Shown here: one piece after another, positions 16,320 to 22,992 of the stretch
Numbering within the stretch: position 1 is the first letter of the stretch
How the letters are laid out: the number at the start of each line of letters is the position of its first letter
DNA from: a virus
Direction: 5' to 3' (one strand)
IMG/VR virus record: IMGVR_UViG_3300042406_000202
Location: 1-34,371 of that record
Length of the DNA: 34,371 nucleotides
The notes under the pieces: model-generated
What the model saw: only the letters and a program-made list of their open reading frames with translations
What the model was told of the DNA's origin: nothing
The model's database searches: none
Program-made: the position numbers and the translations under genes

Positions 16320-17855
16320 ATGCAAATCATTCAAGACAAAGCGCTTTTATTCAGCGCGCCTAACCCGGCGCAGATCACTGCATTGATCCCCAAGAGCAAG
16401 GTCTTAGACGACCAGGTGCTCGTGAACTGGGGGTTTGATGAGGTGCAACTCCTGCGCAACCTGGGTATCAAAGATGTGCCTAGTCCCATCCTGGGACGAT
16501 ACGATTGGCCTGGGGTCTACACCCCGTTTGAGCATCAGCGCACGACCGCTGAGTTCCTGACTCTGCACCCAAGGTGCTTCGTGTTCAACGAGGCTGGCAC
16601 TGGCAAGACCAGTGCGGCGGCATGGGCGGCTGACTACCTCATGCGGCAGGGGCGCGTTAAGCGTGTGCTGATTGTGTGCCCGGTGTCCATCATGGAGACT
16701 GCATGGCGCTCTGACCTGTTCCGTACTGTAATGCACCGCACTGTGGCTATTGCCCAGGGGTCACGCACTCGGCGTCAGGAGATCGTCAAGGGCAACTACG
16801 AATTCATCATCATCAATTTTGACGGCGTAAAGGTAGTCACTCCCGAACTGCAAGCAGGGGGCTTCGATCTCATTATTGTCGATGAGGCCAACGCAATCAA
16901 GAGCGTACAGACAGAGCGCTGGAAAGCCCTGGCTACCCTGGTCAAGCCTAACACTCGGCTGTGGCTCATGACGGGTACCCCCGCCTCGCAGTCACCCTTG
17001 GACGCCTATGGGCTGGCTAAGATCGTCAACCCTGACTCGGTGCCCCGGTTCTTCGGTGCCTTCCGGGATAAGGTCATGACCAAGCTGACCCAGTACAAGT
17101 GGGCGCCCAAGCGGGATGCCCAGGACACTGTGCATAAGGTCTTACAGCCAGCGATACGCTTTACCAAGGCTGAGTGCCTGGACTTGCCCGACCTGCTGTT
17201 TGCCGCCCGGGAGGTGCCGCTTACCGCGCAACAGGAGAAGTACTACGGCGCTATCCGCAAGCAGATGATGACCATTGCGGCAGGGGCGGAGATCACTGCG
17301 ACCAACGCGGCGGCCATGCTCAACAAGCTACTGCAAATCTCTCAGGGCGCTGTCTACACGGACGACCGGGACGTAGTGGAGTTCGACATCAGCAGTCGCT
17401 ATGCGGCGCTCAAAGAAGTGATCGATGGGACTGACCAGAAGGTGCTGGTGTTCATGCCGTTCCGTCACTCGCTCCTGATGTTGCAGGAGGCCCTGCTCAA
17501 GGACGGGTACACAGTCGATGCAATCCATGGCGATGTGGCGGCTGGCAAGCGCGGCGAGATCATCAAACAGTTCCAGACTGAGGACGACCCGCGAATACTA
17601 CTTTTGGTTCCACAAGCAACCGCCCACGGGATTACCCTAACCCGCGCTGACCAGGTGGTCTGGTGGGGGCCCATCGCCTCTACGGAACTTTACATCCAGG
17701 CCAACTCCCGGGCGCATCGGGCGGGGCAGAAGCACAATGTCACTATCACCCACTTGCAGGGCAGTCCGGTTGAGCGCAGAATGTACGGCCTGCTTCAAAA
17801 CAAAGTGGACATGCACCTAAGCCTAGTCGAACTGTACAAACAAGAAATCGCATGA
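16320..17855 (+). CDS. SNF2-type superfamily 2 helicase/ATPase
   Basis: The first 33 codons of the longest frame run through the terminator, so ATG 16320 (MQIIQDKALLFSAPN) is the likely start, giving 511 residues. Motif I is EAGTGKTS (91-98), motif II is VDEA (187-190, followed by N where others have H), motif III is TGTPASQSP (218-226), and motif VI is SRAHRAGQK near the C-terminus, as in SNF2/Rad54-like enzymes. Such phage proteins move along duplex DNA and are thought to aid replication or recombination. No good Shine-Dalgarno sequence precedes it. It overlaps the zinc-ribbon gene by ATGA. Confidence 0.93.
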   Translation: MQIIQDKALLFSAPNPAQITALIPKSKVLDDQVLVNWGFDEVQLLRNLGIKDVPSPILGRYDWPGVYTPFEHQRTTAEFLTLHPRCFVFNEAGTGKTSAAAWAADYLMRQGRVKRVLIVCPVSIMETAWRSDLFRTVMHRTVAIAQGSRTRRQEIVKGNYEFIIINFDGVKVVTPELQAGGFDLIIVDEANAIKSVQTERWKALATLVKPNTRLWLMTGTPASQSPLDAYGLAKIVNPDSVPRFFGAFRDKVMTKLTQYKWAPKRDAQDTVHKVLQPAIRFTKAECLDLPDLLFAAREVPLTAQQEKYYGAIRKQMMTIAAGAEITATNAAAMLNKLLQISQGAVYTDDRDVVEFDISSRYAALKEVIDGTDQKVLVFMPFRHSLLMLQEALLKDGYTVDAIHGDVAAGKRGEIIKQFQTEDDPRILLLVPQATAHGITLTRADQVVWWGPIASTELYIQANSRAHRAGQKHNVTITHLQGSPVERRMYGLLQNKVDMHLSLVELYKQEIA

Positions 17856-18148
17856 ATGTCGTTGACTTTTCAAAAGCCAAAGAGGAACGCAAACCGCACA
17901 TTAGTGGTGCTCTGTACTGCATGGGGTGTAACCATGAGTGGACTGCGGTGTGGACGCCGGGTACCACAGAGTTTGAGTGCCCGGAGTGTAAGTCTATGAA
18001 AGGGCGCGGCAAATACGAAGTAGCCCCTGCGCCTGGCAGTCAGGTATGGACTTGCATGTCTTGTGACAACCAGCTCTTCAACCTGCTAGGTGACCGAGTG
18101 CATTGCCCCAACTGCGGGAATTCCTGGGGGTACGAAGAATTGACTTGA
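17852..18148 (+). CDS. Double zinc-ribbon protein
   Basis: This 98-residue protein has two four-Cys sites: CMGC...CPEC (C23, C26, C43, C46) and CMSC...CPNCG (C68, C71, C85, C88). Each is a zinc ribbon, as used in nucleic acid or protein contacts. It overlaps the helicase stop by ATGA and may be its partner. Its stop codon (18146-18148) lies within the -35 element of the next promoter. Confidence 0.85.
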   Translation: MNVVDFSKAKEERKPHISGALYCMGCNHEWTAVWTPGTTEFECPECKSMKGRGKYEVAPAPGSQVWTCMSCDNQLFNLLGDRVHCPNCGNSWGYEELT

Positions 18149-18172
18149 CGTTAAAATTTGACACTGTATAAT
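18145..18172 (+). promoter_or_regulatory. Sigma70-type promoter
   Basis: TTGACG (18145-18150) and a perfect TATAAT (18167-18172) are separated by 16 bp in an AT-rich patch that stands out from the GC-rich surroundings. Transcription would start near 18179-18180, exactly where the structured RNA begins. This is the only near-consensus promoter I see in the window and would drive the replication operon from host RNA polymerase. Confidence 0.88.
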
Positions 18173-18179
18173 TTGTTTC

Positions 18180-18265
18180 GTGGGCAGTGAGGGGTACGGG
18201 TTAGCGCCGTGCCAGGTAGACCTTCTCTCAAAGTGACGCTGCTTCATGCGAACCTCACTGCCCAC
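18180..18265 (+). ncRNA. Structured RNA or 5' leader element with 13-bp closing stem
   Basis: GTGGGCAGTGAGG (18180-18192) pairs perfectly with CCTCACTGCCCAC (18253-18265). Inside, GGTACGG (18193-18199) pairs with CCGTGCC (18207-18213) over a GTTAGCG loop. AGCG in that loop (18203-18206) could pair with CGCT (18237-18240) as a pseudoknot, and CGC/GCG (18237-18239 and 18248-18250) is an alternative. There is no ORF of note and no tRNA fold. It starts at the predicted +1 of the promoter and lies 35 bp before the next gene, with no terminator after it. It could be a cis-acting leader (for example an antitermination element like the put RNAs of phage HK022), a riboswitch-type element, or a processed small RNA. 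Confidence 0.72.
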
Positions 18266-18300
18266 ACCCCGTTCAAACGTAAATCAAACAGGAGTTAGTT

Positions 18301-18540
18301 ATGACATCAGAAGAAGCAAACGTAGCAATGATGCTGGAGTTGGAAGAGAAGATCACCCGCCGCATCCGCGAGCAGATTTATATGGCGGCTGTTGGCAACG
18401 AGTTTGAGCCGGGGACCCTTCCAGTTACCTTAGATGCCTATTCACTGCATAACGCACTGCGGGCAAACCTTTTCAATGACGAAATATTCATTTCAGCAAT
18501 CACAAAAAAGATTGGCTCAAAGATGGCCAACATATACTGA
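18301..18540 (+). CDS. Hypothetical protein, first gene of the replication operon (79 aa)
   Basis: AGGAG lies 6-7 bases before ATG 18301. The product begins MTSEEANVAMMLELEEKI and is helical, with a middle NEFEPGTLPVTLDAYS segment. No motif was recognised. Being directly behind the structured RNA, it would be the first gene affected if that RNA regulates expression. Confidence 0.75.
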   Translation: MTSEEANVAMMLELEEKITRRIREQIYMAAVGNEFEPGTLPVTLDAYSLHNALRANLFNDEIFISAITKKIGSKMANIY

Positions 18541-18552
18541 GGAGCCCCCAAC

Positions 18553-18942
18553 ATGGCAGACGCAGACAAACTCGTCAGGGTCTACATCAAGATCCGTGAC
18601 GCCAAAGCCGCAAAGGCTAAGCAACTAGAAGACGAAATTGCAGAGCTGGATAAACAGCTCGATACAGTTGAAGCTGAGTTGCTGGAGCTTTGCAAATCTA
18701 CTGGACAGGACGGCGGCAAGACACAGCACGGTTCATTCCGGCGCTCGGTCAAGACCCGCTACTGGACTTCCGACTGGGATAAGATGTACCAGTTCATCAA
18801 AGACAATGACGCACCTGAACTGCTCGAACGTAGAGTAGCGCAGACGGCATTCAAAGAGTTCTTAGCCTCTAATCCTGACAAGATGCCAGAGGGTATGAAT
18901 GTGGACTCACGGTACGCAATTACTGTGACCCGCGCCCGTTAA
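18553..18942 (+). CDS. Coiled-coil protein, possibly Gam- or Gp157-like
   Basis: This 129-residue protein has a long charged helix at about 12-58 (AKAAKAKQLEDEIAELDKQL and beyond), then HGSFRRSVKTRYWTSDWDKM and a helical C-terminus ending AITVTRAR. The layout, a coiled coil then a small beta/helical domain, is like phage Gam host-nuclease inhibitors or the siphovirus Gp157 group, which sit beside ssDNA-binding proteins. The match is by layout only. GAGGAG precedes the ATG; the next gene encodes a probable ssDNA-binding protein. Confidence 0.7.
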   Translation: MADADKLVRVYIKIRDAKAAKAKQLEDEIAELDKQLDTVEAELLELCKSTGQDGGKTQHGSFRRSVKTRYWTSDWDKMYQFIKDNDAPELLERRVAQTAFKEFLASNPDKMPEGMNVDSRYAITVTRAR

Positions 18943-18960: not shown

Positions 18961-19854
18961 ATGAGTAACATTGCACTTTTCCAATCCGGTTCCGTTATTC
19001 CCGACTATCTCCGCGCTCAACCTGACGCGACCACCAAAGACATTGCAGGCAGTTCCGGCGGCAAGCAAATCTCCATCAAGGGGGGTGTGTGGCGTATGGT
19101 TGTAGGTGGCGAAGAAGTTGCGAAGAATGAAGACCGCGCAATGAACTTCGTTATCGTGGCCAGTGGTAAGGGCGTTTCGCGCACCTACTACGCTGAGAAG
19201 TACGAAGAAGGCAAAGACATCAAGCCTGCCTGCTGGTCTGCTGAAGGCGTTAAGCCTGAAGCCGAAGTGGTCAACCCGCAAAGCTCTGCATGCGCTACCT
19301 GCCCCCAGAACATTGAGGGCTCTGGCGAAGGCAAAGCGCGCGCCTGCCGTTATAGCAAGCGTCTGGCTGTGGCCCTGGAGCATGACATCGGTGGCAACAT
19401 CTACCGCCTGTCTGTCCCGGCTAAGTCTTACTTCGGTAAGGCTGAAGGCGAGAAGATGCCCCTGCAAGCGTTTGGTAAGTTCCTGGCAGGACATGGTATC
19501 CCCATCACCGGCATCGTGACCGAGGCGCGTTTTGACACCAGCGAGGCTGTGCCCGTCATGAAGTTCCGTGCTATCCGTCCCCTGTCTCAGGAGGAGTGGG
19601 CGTTGGCCAAGGCACAGAGCGTGACCGAGGATGCCAAGAACGCCATCGACTTCAAGATGGTGCCATCTAAGGCTGAGACGGGTACGCCCCCGGCACTGCC
19701 CCAGGCGTTCAAGGAAGCCCCCGTTGCGGCAGTGGAAGCACCCGCTACCCCGGAACCGACCAAGCGCCCCAAGAAGGCTGAGGCCGCACCTACTGCGGCG
19801 GCTAAAGATGTAAGCGCCATTCTCGACCAGTGGGCCGACGACGGTGACGACTAA
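18961..19854 (+). CDS. Probable ssDNA-binding protein
   Basis: This 297-residue protein has a beta-rich core (ISIKGGVWRMVVGGEEV), a likely zinc site from C91, C111, C114 and C129 (ACATCPQNIEG), a Pro/Ala/Lys-rich linker (about 225-280) and an acidic tail, ILDQWADDGDD. Folded core plus flexible linker plus acidic tip is the design of phage ssDNA-binding proteins such as T7 gp2.5 and T4 gp32, where the tail contacts replication partners. The neighbours (primase-helicase, coiled-coil protein) agree. The identification is by architecture, not by a sequence match. It has the same ribosome-binding cassette as the gene at 479. Confidence 0.7.
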   Translation: MSNIALFQSGSVIPDYLRAQPDATTKDIAGSSGGKQISIKGGVWRMVVGGEEVAKNEDRAMNFVIVASGKGVSRTYYAEKYEEGKDIKPACWSAEGVKPEAEVVNPQSSACATCPQNIEGSGEGKARACRYSKRLAVALEHDIGGNIYRLSVPAKSYFGKAEGEKMPLQAFGKFLAGHGIPITGIVTEARFDTSEAVPVMKFRAIRPLSQEEWALAKAQSVTEDAKNAIDFKMVPSKAETGTPPALPQAFKEAPVAAVEAPATPEPTKRPKKAEAAPTAAAKDVSAILDQWADDGDD

Positions 19855-20104
19855 GAAGGCAAGAGGGTACTCCACCCTCTTTCTTAGCGCGATTGAGGAA
19901 GCGGGGCTTGACCCGCTGGTGAGACAGTTTGCTGAGGAGTGCATACGGCGTGGTATCCCCATTGCCGCTATCGCCTCCCGGCTGGACGTAACACGGGCGT
20001 CCGTTTACAACTGGTTCACCGGCAAGGCCAAGCCCCGCCGCCTTCAGCTTGCGCAGATAAGAAAAATAACGGCGCGGTGGACCCGCGCTCACCCCAATCA
20101 GTAG
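19844..20104 (+). CDS. XRE-like helix-turn-helix protein (86 aa)
   Basis: This ORF starts at GTG 19844, overlapping the end of the ssDNA-binding protein gene by 11 bp. The HTH spans about residues 35-62: IPIAAIASRLDVTRASVYNW followed by FTGKAKPRR. It resembles Cro/CI-type regulators or small phage HTH proteins. It is buried in the replication operon without its own promoter, so it may feed back on operon expression and is another candidate binder of the inverted repeats. The Shine-Dalgarno sequence is weak, so the exact start is uncertain. Confidence 0.75.
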   Translation: MTTKKARGYSTLFLSAIEEAGLDPLVRQFAEECIRRGIPIAAIASRLDVTRASVYNWFTGKAKPRRLQLAQIRKITARWTRAHPNQ

Positions 20105-20112
20105 GTAGCACC

Positions 20113-22992
20113 GTGACCGTCTTCCTCGACTCTATCCTGCCCACACAGGGCGTCTATTGCGTGGTAGGTATCAAATCAAAGATAGCCTCACCGTCCTTCT
20201 ATACAACTACAGCAGAAGTTGACCAGGCCGCATCCAGTTTGGATACCGCAGGTGCTGACGCATACTTCGCGCTGGCCTCGTTCAAAGACAACTCCAGCCG
20301 CAAGGCAGAGAACGCGGCGTTCATGCGCTCGTTCTTTCTCGACCTCGACTGCGGTCCTGGCAAGCCGTACCACGCCCAGACTGATGCGGCTGTGGCGCTA
20401 TCGCAGTTCATCAAAGACACTGGGCTTCCCGCCCCCACCATAGTCAACTCAGGCGGTGGTCTGCATGTGTACTGGCCGCTCACTGAGGATGTACCTGTTG
20501 CGGTGTGGAGTTCCCATGCCAGGATGCTGAAACTCCTGTGCAAAGAACACAAACTGCATGCCGACCCGGCAGTCACGGCAGACATCTCCCGCATCCTGCG
20601 GGTGCCTGGCACAAACAATTACAAGCAAGACATTCCCCGCCCGGTGGCTGTTGCCGTGCTGTCTCATCCTGTTCCGCTCGAAGAGATTGTGAGCCGCCTG
20701 GGTACTCCAGTTGCCGATCTGAGTGCCGCAAAGATGTTTGGCATGGACGACACCTCTAAGGATGTGTCAGGCGGCGCATACCCCGCATGTAGCTTCGCCA
20801 GGATCGTGCGCAAGAGCATGAAGGGCACGGGTTGCAACCAGATCAAGAACGCCCTGGAGAACGCCCCCACCCTGGAAGAACCTATGTGGCGCGCCGCGCT
20901 ATCTATCGCTGTGCGGTGTGAAGACGGCAACGAAGCGATCCACAAGCTCAGCATGGGGCACCCCGGCTACAACGCCCAGGACACCGAGCAGAAAGCCCTG
21001 GAAACTAAGGGCCCCTACACCTGCCAGTGGTACCGTGAGAACAACAGCGCATTGTGCGAGGGGTGTACCCAGAAGGTGGTTAGCCCCATCCTGATCGGTA
21101 AGAAGATTGAAGCGGCTCCGGCTGAAGGCGATGCCTACATCATCGAGACGCCGCTGGACGGCGACGACAGCGACAAGGTAGGCGATACCGTCAAGATTGA
21201 GGTGCCTGCATATCCGTACCCGTATTTCCGTGGCGCCCAAGGCGGCGTCTACAAGAAGGAAAAAACGGATGACGGCGAAACCAAAGAAATTGAAATCTAC
21301 CGCAGTGACCTGTACATAACCACACGGTTCTTTGACTCTGATGAGCATGGGGACGGCGATGGGGAGATGGTGCTAATCCACCTGCACATGTCACGGGATG
21401 GGGTTCGCCGCTTCTACGCCCCGGTTACATCACTCTTTGCAAAGGACAAACTCCGCGACCTGCTCATCAAGCATGGCGTTATCGCATACGGCAAGACACT
21501 GGACTTAATCATGGCTTACTTCGCATCAAGCATCCGCAAACTGCAATCCCAATTCGCCGCGAACAAGACCCGTAGCCAGATGGGCTGGACCCCGGACATG
21601 CAGGGCTTCGTTGTGGGTGAACTGGAATACACCGCCGGTGGTACCAAGCTGGCACCGCCTGCCAGCGGAACCAGGCAACTGGCTCCGGCCTTTTCGCCCC
21701 GTGGTTCTCTGGAAGAGTGGAAATCGATTGCTAACTTCTACAACCGCCCTGGCATGGAGCCGCATGCGCTGACTCTGTTCTTCGGGTTCGGTGCCCCCTT
21801 GCTGAAGCTGATGGACAACATCAACGTGCGTGGTGCGCTGATTAACCTGAAGTCCAACACCTCTGGGTCTGGCAAGACGACCGCTCAGCTTCTGGTCAAC
21901 TCTATCTTCGGGCACCCCACCGAACTGCTGATGACCAAGGACGATACCTACGCCGCCAAGATGCACCGCATCGGCATGCTGAACAGTATCGCCTTCACCG
22001 TGGACGAGATCACCAACACGGTTGATGAGGAGTTGTCAGACACTGCCTACGGAGTTACCACAGGGCGCGCCAGGCACCGCATGGAGTCGCAGTCCAACAA
22101 GCTACGGGTGAACAACACAACCTGGTGCAACGTGACCATCTCCTCTGCCAACGCTTCGCTGGTGGATCGGCTGGCCCAGTTGAAGTCCACGGCTGACGGC
22201 GAACTGCGCCGGGTGTTTGAGTACGAGGTGTCTAAGATCAACGGCATCCCCAAGACTGAGATCGATGCGGTGTTCAGCAAGCTCAACACCAACTATGGGG
22301 TGGCTGGCCCGATCTATATCCAGCATGTGCTGGCCAACTACGATAGCGTCCTCAGGATGCTGAAGAAAATGCAGGAGAAGATAGACGCGGAACTGGGATT
22401 TGACCAGGCTGACCGTTTCTATTCGAACATACTGACAATTGCCTTCGTAGGCGCCCTGATTGCAAAGAAGTGTGAACTGCATGACATCGACATCCCGCGC
22501 GTCTACAAGTACGCCATTGGCCTAGTCGAGCAGAACCAACTGCAATACGCCGCCAGCCTGGGTTCCCCGCTACTGATTGCACAGGAAACGCTGACTGCCT
22601 TCGTCAACGAGAACGTGAACAACGTGCTGGTCATTGACCAACAGGTGAAGGGGTCTATGCCTCCCGCCGCAATCAAACAGCCCTACGGCCCCCTGCGCAT
22701 GCGCTACGAGCCCAACACCAAGGAGCTGTACATCACCGCCGCTGAGTTCAGAAAGTTCTTTACGATGCGGCAGGTGGACGTGCGCGAGAGCCTGAAGCAT
22801 CTAGCCCAGGCTGGAATTGCAAAGCACAATGGTTTGTCAGAGGTCAAGCGCATCGGCGCTGGCGCTGTGGGTAGTCTTAGTGGATTAGGAGCACGTTGTT
22901 ATGTCTTCGACGGCACGGCAATCGGCATCGACGAAGGGTCGTTCAAAGTCGAAGGACTCGAAGAAATCGCAACCGACCCCACCGTTACCTGA
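20113..22992 (+). CDS. PrimPol-DUF927 primase-helicase
   Basis: GTG 20113 gives MTVFLDSILPTQGVYCVVG and 959 residues; the longer frame would overlap the HTH gene. The N-terminus matches archaeo-eukaryotic primases: FFLDLDCG (D77, D79), SGGGLHVYW (113-121, H118) and ADPAVTADISRILRVPGTNN. The C-terminal part is a DUF927-type helicase with Walker A NTSGSGKTT (K588) and Walker B TVDEIT (D631, E632). It would prime and unwind DNA at the fork for the family A polymerase. A Cys-rich stretch (CQWYRENNSALCEGC) between the domains may bind zinc. The Shine-Dalgarno sequence is weak. Confidence 0.9.
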   Translation: MTVFLDSILPTQGVYCVVGIKSKIASPSFYTTTAEVDQAASSLDTAGADAYFALASFKDNSSRKAENAAFMRSFFLDLDCGPGKPYHAQTDAAVALSQFIKDTGLPAPTIVNSGGGLHVYWPLTEDVPVAVWSSHARMLKLLCKEHKLHADPAVTADISRILRVPGTNNYKQDIPRPVAVAVLSHPVPLEEIVSRLGTPVADLSAAKMFGMDDTSKDVSGGAYPACSFARIVRKSMKGTGCNQIKNALENAPTLEEPMWRAALSIAVRCEDGNEAIHKLSMGHPGYNAQDTEQKALETKGPYTCQWYRENNSALCEGCTQKVVSPILIGKKIEAAPAEGDAYIIETPLDGDDSDKVGDTVKIEVPAYPYPYFRGAQGGVYKKEKTDDGETKEIEIYRSDLYITTRFFDSDEHGDGDGEMVLIHLHMSRDGVRRFYAPVTSLFAKDKLRDLLIKHGVIAYGKTLDLIMAYFASSIRKLQSQFAANKTRSQMGWTPDMQGFVVGELEYTAGGTKLAPPASGTRQLAPAFSPRGSLEEWKSIANFYNRPGMEPHALTLFFGFGAPLLKLMDNINVRGALINLKSNTSGSGKTTAQLLVNSIFGHPTELLMTKDDTYAAKMHRIGMLNSIAFTVDEITNTVDEELSDTAYGVTTGRARHRMESQSNKLRVNNTTWCNVTISSANASLVDRLAQLKSTADGELRRVFEYEVSKINGIPKTEIDAVFSKLNTNYGVAGPIYIQHVLANYDSVLRMLKKMQEKIDAELGFDQADRFYSNILTIAFVGALIAKKCELHDIDIPRVYKYAIGLVEQNQLQYAASLGSPLLIAQETLTAFVNENVNNVLVIDQQVKGSMPPAAIKQPYGPLRMRYEPNTKELYITAAEFRKFFTMRQVDVRESLKHLAQAGIAKHNGLSEVKRIGAGAVGSLSGLGARCYVFDGTAIGIDEGSFKVEGLEEIATDPTVT

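Follow-up and report, generated by a model that had tools for sequence, protein, structure and literature searches.

A structured RNA at the head of the replication operon of a phage almost certainly belongs to a real class present in diverse phages, and this class of structured leader or noncoding RNA is apparently new and undescribed. Its occurrence in many uncultured phages, in Burkholderiales contigs from bacterial genomes and in a Shewanella phage isolate, together with its absence from Rfam, makes it a tractable question. The window, i.e. the whole stretch of DNA analysed, corresponds to a viral record of IMG/VR with a length of 34,371 bases; the features around the RNA are listed in Table 1.

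Promoter, fold and operon in the window

The promoter preceding the RNA matches the consensus at 11 of 12 positions (-35 box TTGACG at 18145-18150, spacer of 16 nt, -10 box TATAAT at 18167-18172), in agreement with the near-consensus promoter described in the first-pass annotation. A promoter scan over 10 kb returned two sites only, the second of which scores 9/12, and the TTTGACANTGTATAATTT block occurs once in the window against a chance expectation of 0 and is conserved in relatives. The -10 box ends 7 nt before the closing stem P1, which supports, as a prediction, the earlier proposal that transcription starts on the first base of the stem. P1 is a perfect helix of 13 bp (18180-18192 with 18253-18265) enclosing 60 nt, and the inner hairpin P2 has 7 bp (18193-18199 with 18207-18213), all exactly as first described. 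The hairpin P4 of 3 bp (18237-18239 with 18248-18250), the loop of which forms the second conserved core, is absent from that description. The RNA (18180-18265) has a minimum free energy of -43.3 kcal/mol (z = -4.57), and none of 200 dinucleotide shuffles was equally stable.

The transcript of the replication operon probably opens with this RNA as its nucleotides 1-86, so that no 5' nucleotide is left unpaired; the placement of the RNA at the 5' end of this message, with no terminator directly after it, is likewise supported. The SSB-like protein of the operon was modelled with low confidence (pLDDT 57), its best structural matches reaching Z 4.2 or less. A zinc-ribbon ORF (17852-18148), the stop codon of which is overlapped by the -35 box, lies between the helicase and the promoter. 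This ORF is accessory, being missing in L005 and many relatives and swapped for other ORFs in L007, L015 and L038.

Table 1. Positions of the RNA, its promoter and the genes downstream in the window
Feature	Position	Strand	Basis or remark
Sigma70-type promoter, TTGACG-16-TATAAT	18145..18172	+	promoter scan; TTTGACANTGTATAATTT block kept in relatives
P1, 5' arm	18180..18192	+	begins at the predicted +1, 7 nt past the -10 box
P2 hairpin, 7 bp, loop GUUAGCG at 18200-18206	18193..18213	+	fold and covariation
L2 half of candidate kissing contact (AGC)	18203..18205	+	compensated GGC:GCC in Shewanella phage
Variable P3 region	18214..18236	+	comparison of copies
P4 hairpin, CGC[UGCUUCAU]GCG	18237..18250	+	covariation, independent P4 scan
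L4 half of candidate kissing contact (GCU)	18241..18243	+	compensated GGC:GCC in Shewanella phage
P1, 3' arm	18253..18265	+	fold, shuffled-flank test, arm pairing counts
Unstructured leader GTTCAAACGTAAATCAAACAGGAG with Shine-Dalgarno site	18266..18300	+	kept in relatives without the RNA
Hypothetical protein of 79 aa, encoded by the first gene of the message	18301..18540	+	gene annotation
DUF7307 / Pam3 gp33-like gene	18553..18942	+	weak Pfam match; phrog_13900
SSB-like gene	18961..19854	+	phrog_27714, acidic tail WADDGDD; weak OB-type similarity
Primase-helicase gene	19939..22992	+	gene annotation

Conservation, distribution and relation to known RNA classes

At least 120 viral contigs of IMG/VR match a pattern containing both loops (GGGTTAGCGYC-N22-52-CTGCTTYATG). 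The architecture common to them consists of a P1 of free sequence (7 to 20 or more bp across the class), P2 with the loop GUUAGCG, a variable region, the 3-bp P4 with the loop UGCUUYAU, and the returning arm of P1. A control scan with GCC replacing GCU in L4 gave five matches, none of them with structure, so that chance matches to such a pattern are few. The R1 match L367 and the pattern matches L344, L345, L348 and L350 were judged to be due to chance, as was a 22-nt match in MT835534, which has neither the second core nor a closing stem.

Comparison of homologues for compensatory changes, the check by which the first-pass annotation could have been refuted, demonstrated that pairing in P1, P2 and P4 is kept despite sequence change; the proposal of a structured RNA is thereby strongly upheld. 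In alignment A1, comprising 57 sequences selected so that none were above about 80% alike, the covariation score of P2 and P4 was 0.506 compared with 0.138 after shuffling; none of 500 shuffles scored as high, and the signal was destroyed when the pairing partner was slid along. All four Watson-Crick types were found at the middle pair of P4, and an independent scan, in which CUC was fixed on the 5' side and the opposite base left free, revealed GAG opposite in 77 of 77 contigs (46 distinct cores). The arms of P1, which were located by pairing itself, were tested against shuffled flanks, the mean pairing score being 27.6 for the real and 9.9 for the shuffled ones. Among 98 distinct 5' arms the eight inner positions are each paired in 97-100%; pairing is thus kept while the sequence is free. 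In P2 and P4, G-U wobbles outnumber A-C/C-A mismatches by 15 to 2 (P = 0.002), which indicates that the folding molecule is the sense-strand RNA and not DNA or the opposite strand.

The conservation of the loops is partly by construction, because both loops and the two P2-closing pairs were fixed by the pattern searches. Among variants detected by other means, namely L309, L366, the second copy in L343, and L352, L2 differs outside AGC and can thus vary there. In the Shewanella phage copy AGC of L2 is replaced by GGC and GCU of L4 by GCC, preserving the pairing. The possible loop pseudoknot of the first-pass annotation can accordingly be kept in the narrower form of an L2-L4 kissing contact, which is a candidate only, since compensation was seen as one event, in a single variant; as judged from the sequences, the two loops probably kiss.

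Fifteen stretches originated from bacterial genome contigs. Copies judged to be true there include those of Achromobacter dolens (two in tandem), Bordetella trematum, Curvibacter, Variovorax and Comamonas, and the bacterial contigs carrying the RNA are probably prophages. Prevalence in bacterial host genomes is low (3/399, one of the three being doubtful, and 1/369), and up to two copies were found per contig. Among isolate phages, blast searches with short consensus pieces yielded one true case, Shewanella phage vB_Sb_QDWS. Its record OK094664.1 and OP650936.1 ('Hujiaoplasma phage zrk29-1') are both 47,902 long and identical over 456 compared bases, which makes one of the host assignments doubtful. 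Identical copies with identical flanks occur in L338, L339 and L340, from contigs assigned to Aeriscardovia, Vreelandella and Clostridia; a single phage contig has probably been binned there with unrelated genomes.

The window element matched no class in Rfam 15, either at the gathering cut-offs or at relaxed ones, in keeping with the first-pass annotation, which had not recognised it as a known class. The element was also unmatched over 16 loci with diverse copies, where the sole match was a tRNA elsewhere in L239. Weak Rfam matches (mir-34 and others) lay far below the cut-offs. Pistol and hammerhead ribozymes, considered in view of the UUAG loop and GAAA-like motifs, were rejected, their core motifs being missing and none being found by Rfam. 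No description of the class was found in the literature searched, which left out subscription papers. The exclusion of a tRNA stands, ARAGORN having detected neither a tRNA nor a tmRNA. With its closing stem, arm, variable arm and arm, and with first and last loops predicted to kiss, the RNA resembles the tRNA cloverleaf and tRNA-like folds, but it differs from tRNA in the variable length of P1 and in the last arm of 3 bp with its own loop. GOLLD and ROOL are also structured noncoding RNAs of phages and metagenomes; they are far larger than the present RNA.

Predicted transcription start, close relatives and possible protection of the 5' end

Of 98 independent loci, 34 have a -10 hexamer (at least 4/6 matches) ending exactly 6 or 7 nt ahead of P1, and 26 have a stricter one (at least 5/6) at this spacing, the background elsewhere being about 1.5 and 0.2 per position, respectively. 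In a second, later-fetched set the -10 box (at least 5/6) is located at 6 nt in 5 of 22. Given this spacing in about one third of the loci, transcription should begin there on the first base of P1, and for the promoter-linked loci such a start is considered probable from the sequence.

Close relatives were represented by 80 loci fetched with the upstream SNF2-type helicase as a probe. Two segments are conserved in them, TTTGACA[N]TGTATAATTT at the promoter and GTTCAACG(Y)AAATCAAAGGA in the leader downstream, and what lies between these differs, being the window RNA, a diverged version with a different P1, another stem-closed RNA, a short stem or nothing. Among 77 distinct leaders, 11 carry the RNA, 17 another stem-closed kind (13 assigned by script and four moved by hand), four carry stem remnants and 45 are without any, the last two counts being likewise hand-corrected. 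These natural presence/absence alleles at one promoter offer ready-made comparisons. In L144, L150, L032 and L109 the same promoter is followed by a short bare stem only (e.g. GTGGGCAACCCCCAC), and such stems are, by their sequence, apparent remnants of full RNAs. A second stem-closed family, GGGG-AAA-GCCG...GGACGAGCGG-UUAGUA-CCCC with an AGUA/GAA loop-E-like internal loop, takes the place of the window RNA at the same promoter in L022, L031, L043 and L143, and is located 7-14 nt after SSB-like genes in L308, L314, L319 and L328.

Five readings of the function were ranked, and protection of the 5' end in cis was placed first by a narrow margin, as a tentative choice. In its favour, P1 varies freely in sequence and conserves a single feature, the pairing of the exact predicted 5' terminus; moreover, some relatives (L144, L150) retain a bare stem at the predicted +1. 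The protective 5' stem-loops of ompA and papA are simple hairpins; the present RNA would resemble these leaders if, as predicted, its transcript begins within the stem and leaves no base unpaired ahead of it, and is distinguished from them by its conserved inner hairpins and its broad family. The RNA would act as a blunt, locked 5'-terminal domain of the transcript. It would protect against 5'-end-dependent decay (RppH / RNase E) or, alternatively, insulate and stabilise the RNA placed after it, and its conserved loops would serve to maintain the fold or to bind a partner. Base-paired 5' ends are known to resist RNase E (PMC3997798). The conserved loops and the array contexts described below weaken this reading, since a plain stem would suffice for protection and near-invariant loops need another reason. 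The 45 of 77 leaders that lack any element in the same phage group also speak against it. If protection is nevertheless true, the RNA is a phage-made RNA cap. Action in cis of any kind is regarded as moderately likely.

Genomic settings and other readings of the function

Neighbouring genes, as far as crude gene calls allow, are mostly co-directional with the RNA (67 (+,+) versus 10 (-,-)). The RNA heads the replication operon in the window phage and in the diverged phages L194 and L202, and the terminase operon in L285. Many copies are internal, being located within operons, after stop codons or in arrays, and some are found directly 3' of intrinsic terminators. The divergent copy in vB_Sb_QDWS forms the final module of an early leader that contains boxA and separates the repressor from the RecT operon; the upstream part of this leader recurs, with boxA-like sites, in the Burkholderia phages Magia, BgManors32 and Bcep176. 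Structured early leaders with a boxA-like site were located in these Shewanella and Burkholderia phages at L352:3640-4095, L374:2500-2761, L375:2500-2752 and L376:2501-2551. The Magia annotation places hypothetical proteins over the shared leader, on its opposite strand.

Positions right after promoters and at the heads of replication and terminase operons, the presence of up to two copies per contig, the boxA-bearing leaders and the copies immediately following intrinsic terminators would all suit a cis-acting antiterminator or anti-pausing RNA, which as nascent RNA would bind RNA polymerase and keep it from pausing or terminating within the operon that follows. The first-pass annotation had named the put RNAs of HK022 as a parallel. 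The likeness to putL and putR lies in a size of about 70-90 nt, a structured and phage-encoded nature, a position at or near early transcript starts and, in HK022, two copies per genome; as judged from its position in the window and the -10 spacing, the RNA lies downstream of an early promoter as put does. The put RNA, which acts in antitermination via the zinc-binding domain of the RNA polymerase beta' subunit, is, however, composed of two tandem stem-loops of about 70 nt forming a V (PMC9378689), whereas here one four-arm fold with other conserved loops is closed by a single 13-bp stem around the inner hairpins. Because of this difference in architecture the RNA is not a member of the put class. 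The reading is also opposed by the copies inside operons, by the absence of the RNA from close relatives whose promoter and genes are otherwise the same, and by boxA: GCTCTTTAAC-like sites are not enriched near the metagenomic copies in comparison with shuffles or the opposite strand, and boxA-like sites were found only in the Shewanella and Burkholderia phage leaders. Antitermination is thus a possible but doubtful function; if it is the true one, the RNA would be a second protein-free antiterminator beside put, of a different architecture.

Noncoding arrays of stem-closed modules hold the RNA in L299, L209, L213 and L368. Arrays of modules closed by the near-constant stem ACGCATGGGGATTG...CAGTCCCCAGCCGTG are present in L299, L209, L213, L259 and others, with 21 distinct interiors among the loci examined. 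At the 34 promoter-linked loci a gene starts within 60 nt in 15 and none within 400 nt in ten, the latter indicating that the RNA is not only an mRNA leader. Together with the near-invariant loops, the interchangeable modules, and the presence, absence and swapping at one site in relatives, these noncoding surroundings point to a stable RNA processed from a leader or array and acting in trans, e.g. as a decoy or an anti-defence RNA, for which the tRNA-like arm order would suit mimicry. The mostly co-directional placement with operons, the gene start within 60 nt of about half of the promoter-linked copies and the failure to find a tRNA speak against action in trans, which is ranked with antitermination and held with similar doubt. 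If true, it would mean that the RNA may be an anti-defence RNA. L341 and L274 were rejected as stand-alone small RNAs, the T-runs of their apparent terminators being on the opposite strand.

Some copies lie about 5-14 nt downstream of genes for proteins with an SSB-like acidic C-terminal tail, and the B. trematum copy lies between the genes for a recombination directionality factor and an SSB. The frequent adjoining of SSB-like genes and the resemblance of a junction fold with kissing loops to known sensors would agree with an operator or riboswitch, in which translation would be regulated through binding of a ligand, or of a protein such as the SSB from the neighbouring gene, to the junction. 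Yet the downstream genes differ (gp33-like, terminase, noncoding arrays), and the complementarity of P3 to its own Shine-Dalgarno region is 5.63 compared with 5.64 to others (P = 0.555), so that the sensor suggested in the first-pass annotation finds no support as Shine-Dalgarno sequestration by the P3 region. Such control is considered unlikely. Even less credit is given to a selfish or drifting hairpin module of no benefit to the phage: the RNA is polymorphic and multicopy, but its loops and pairing are strongly conserved in diverse phages and its placement is tied to the predicted transcription start.

With due caution, the RNA may be considered as an exchangeable stem-closed cassette, the commonest one seen here, possibly serving as an RNA-only effector at transcript 5' ends and in noncoding arrays and acting through its two conserved, presumably kissing loops on a host factor (RNA polymerase, an RNase or a defence protein). 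Beside the element in L212, L303 and L347 there recurs a promoter-RNA-terminator unit that starts with GTTGCYGTAGG and ends with a GGC...GCC-TTTTT terminator; from its sequence this unit looks like a separate small RNA gene.
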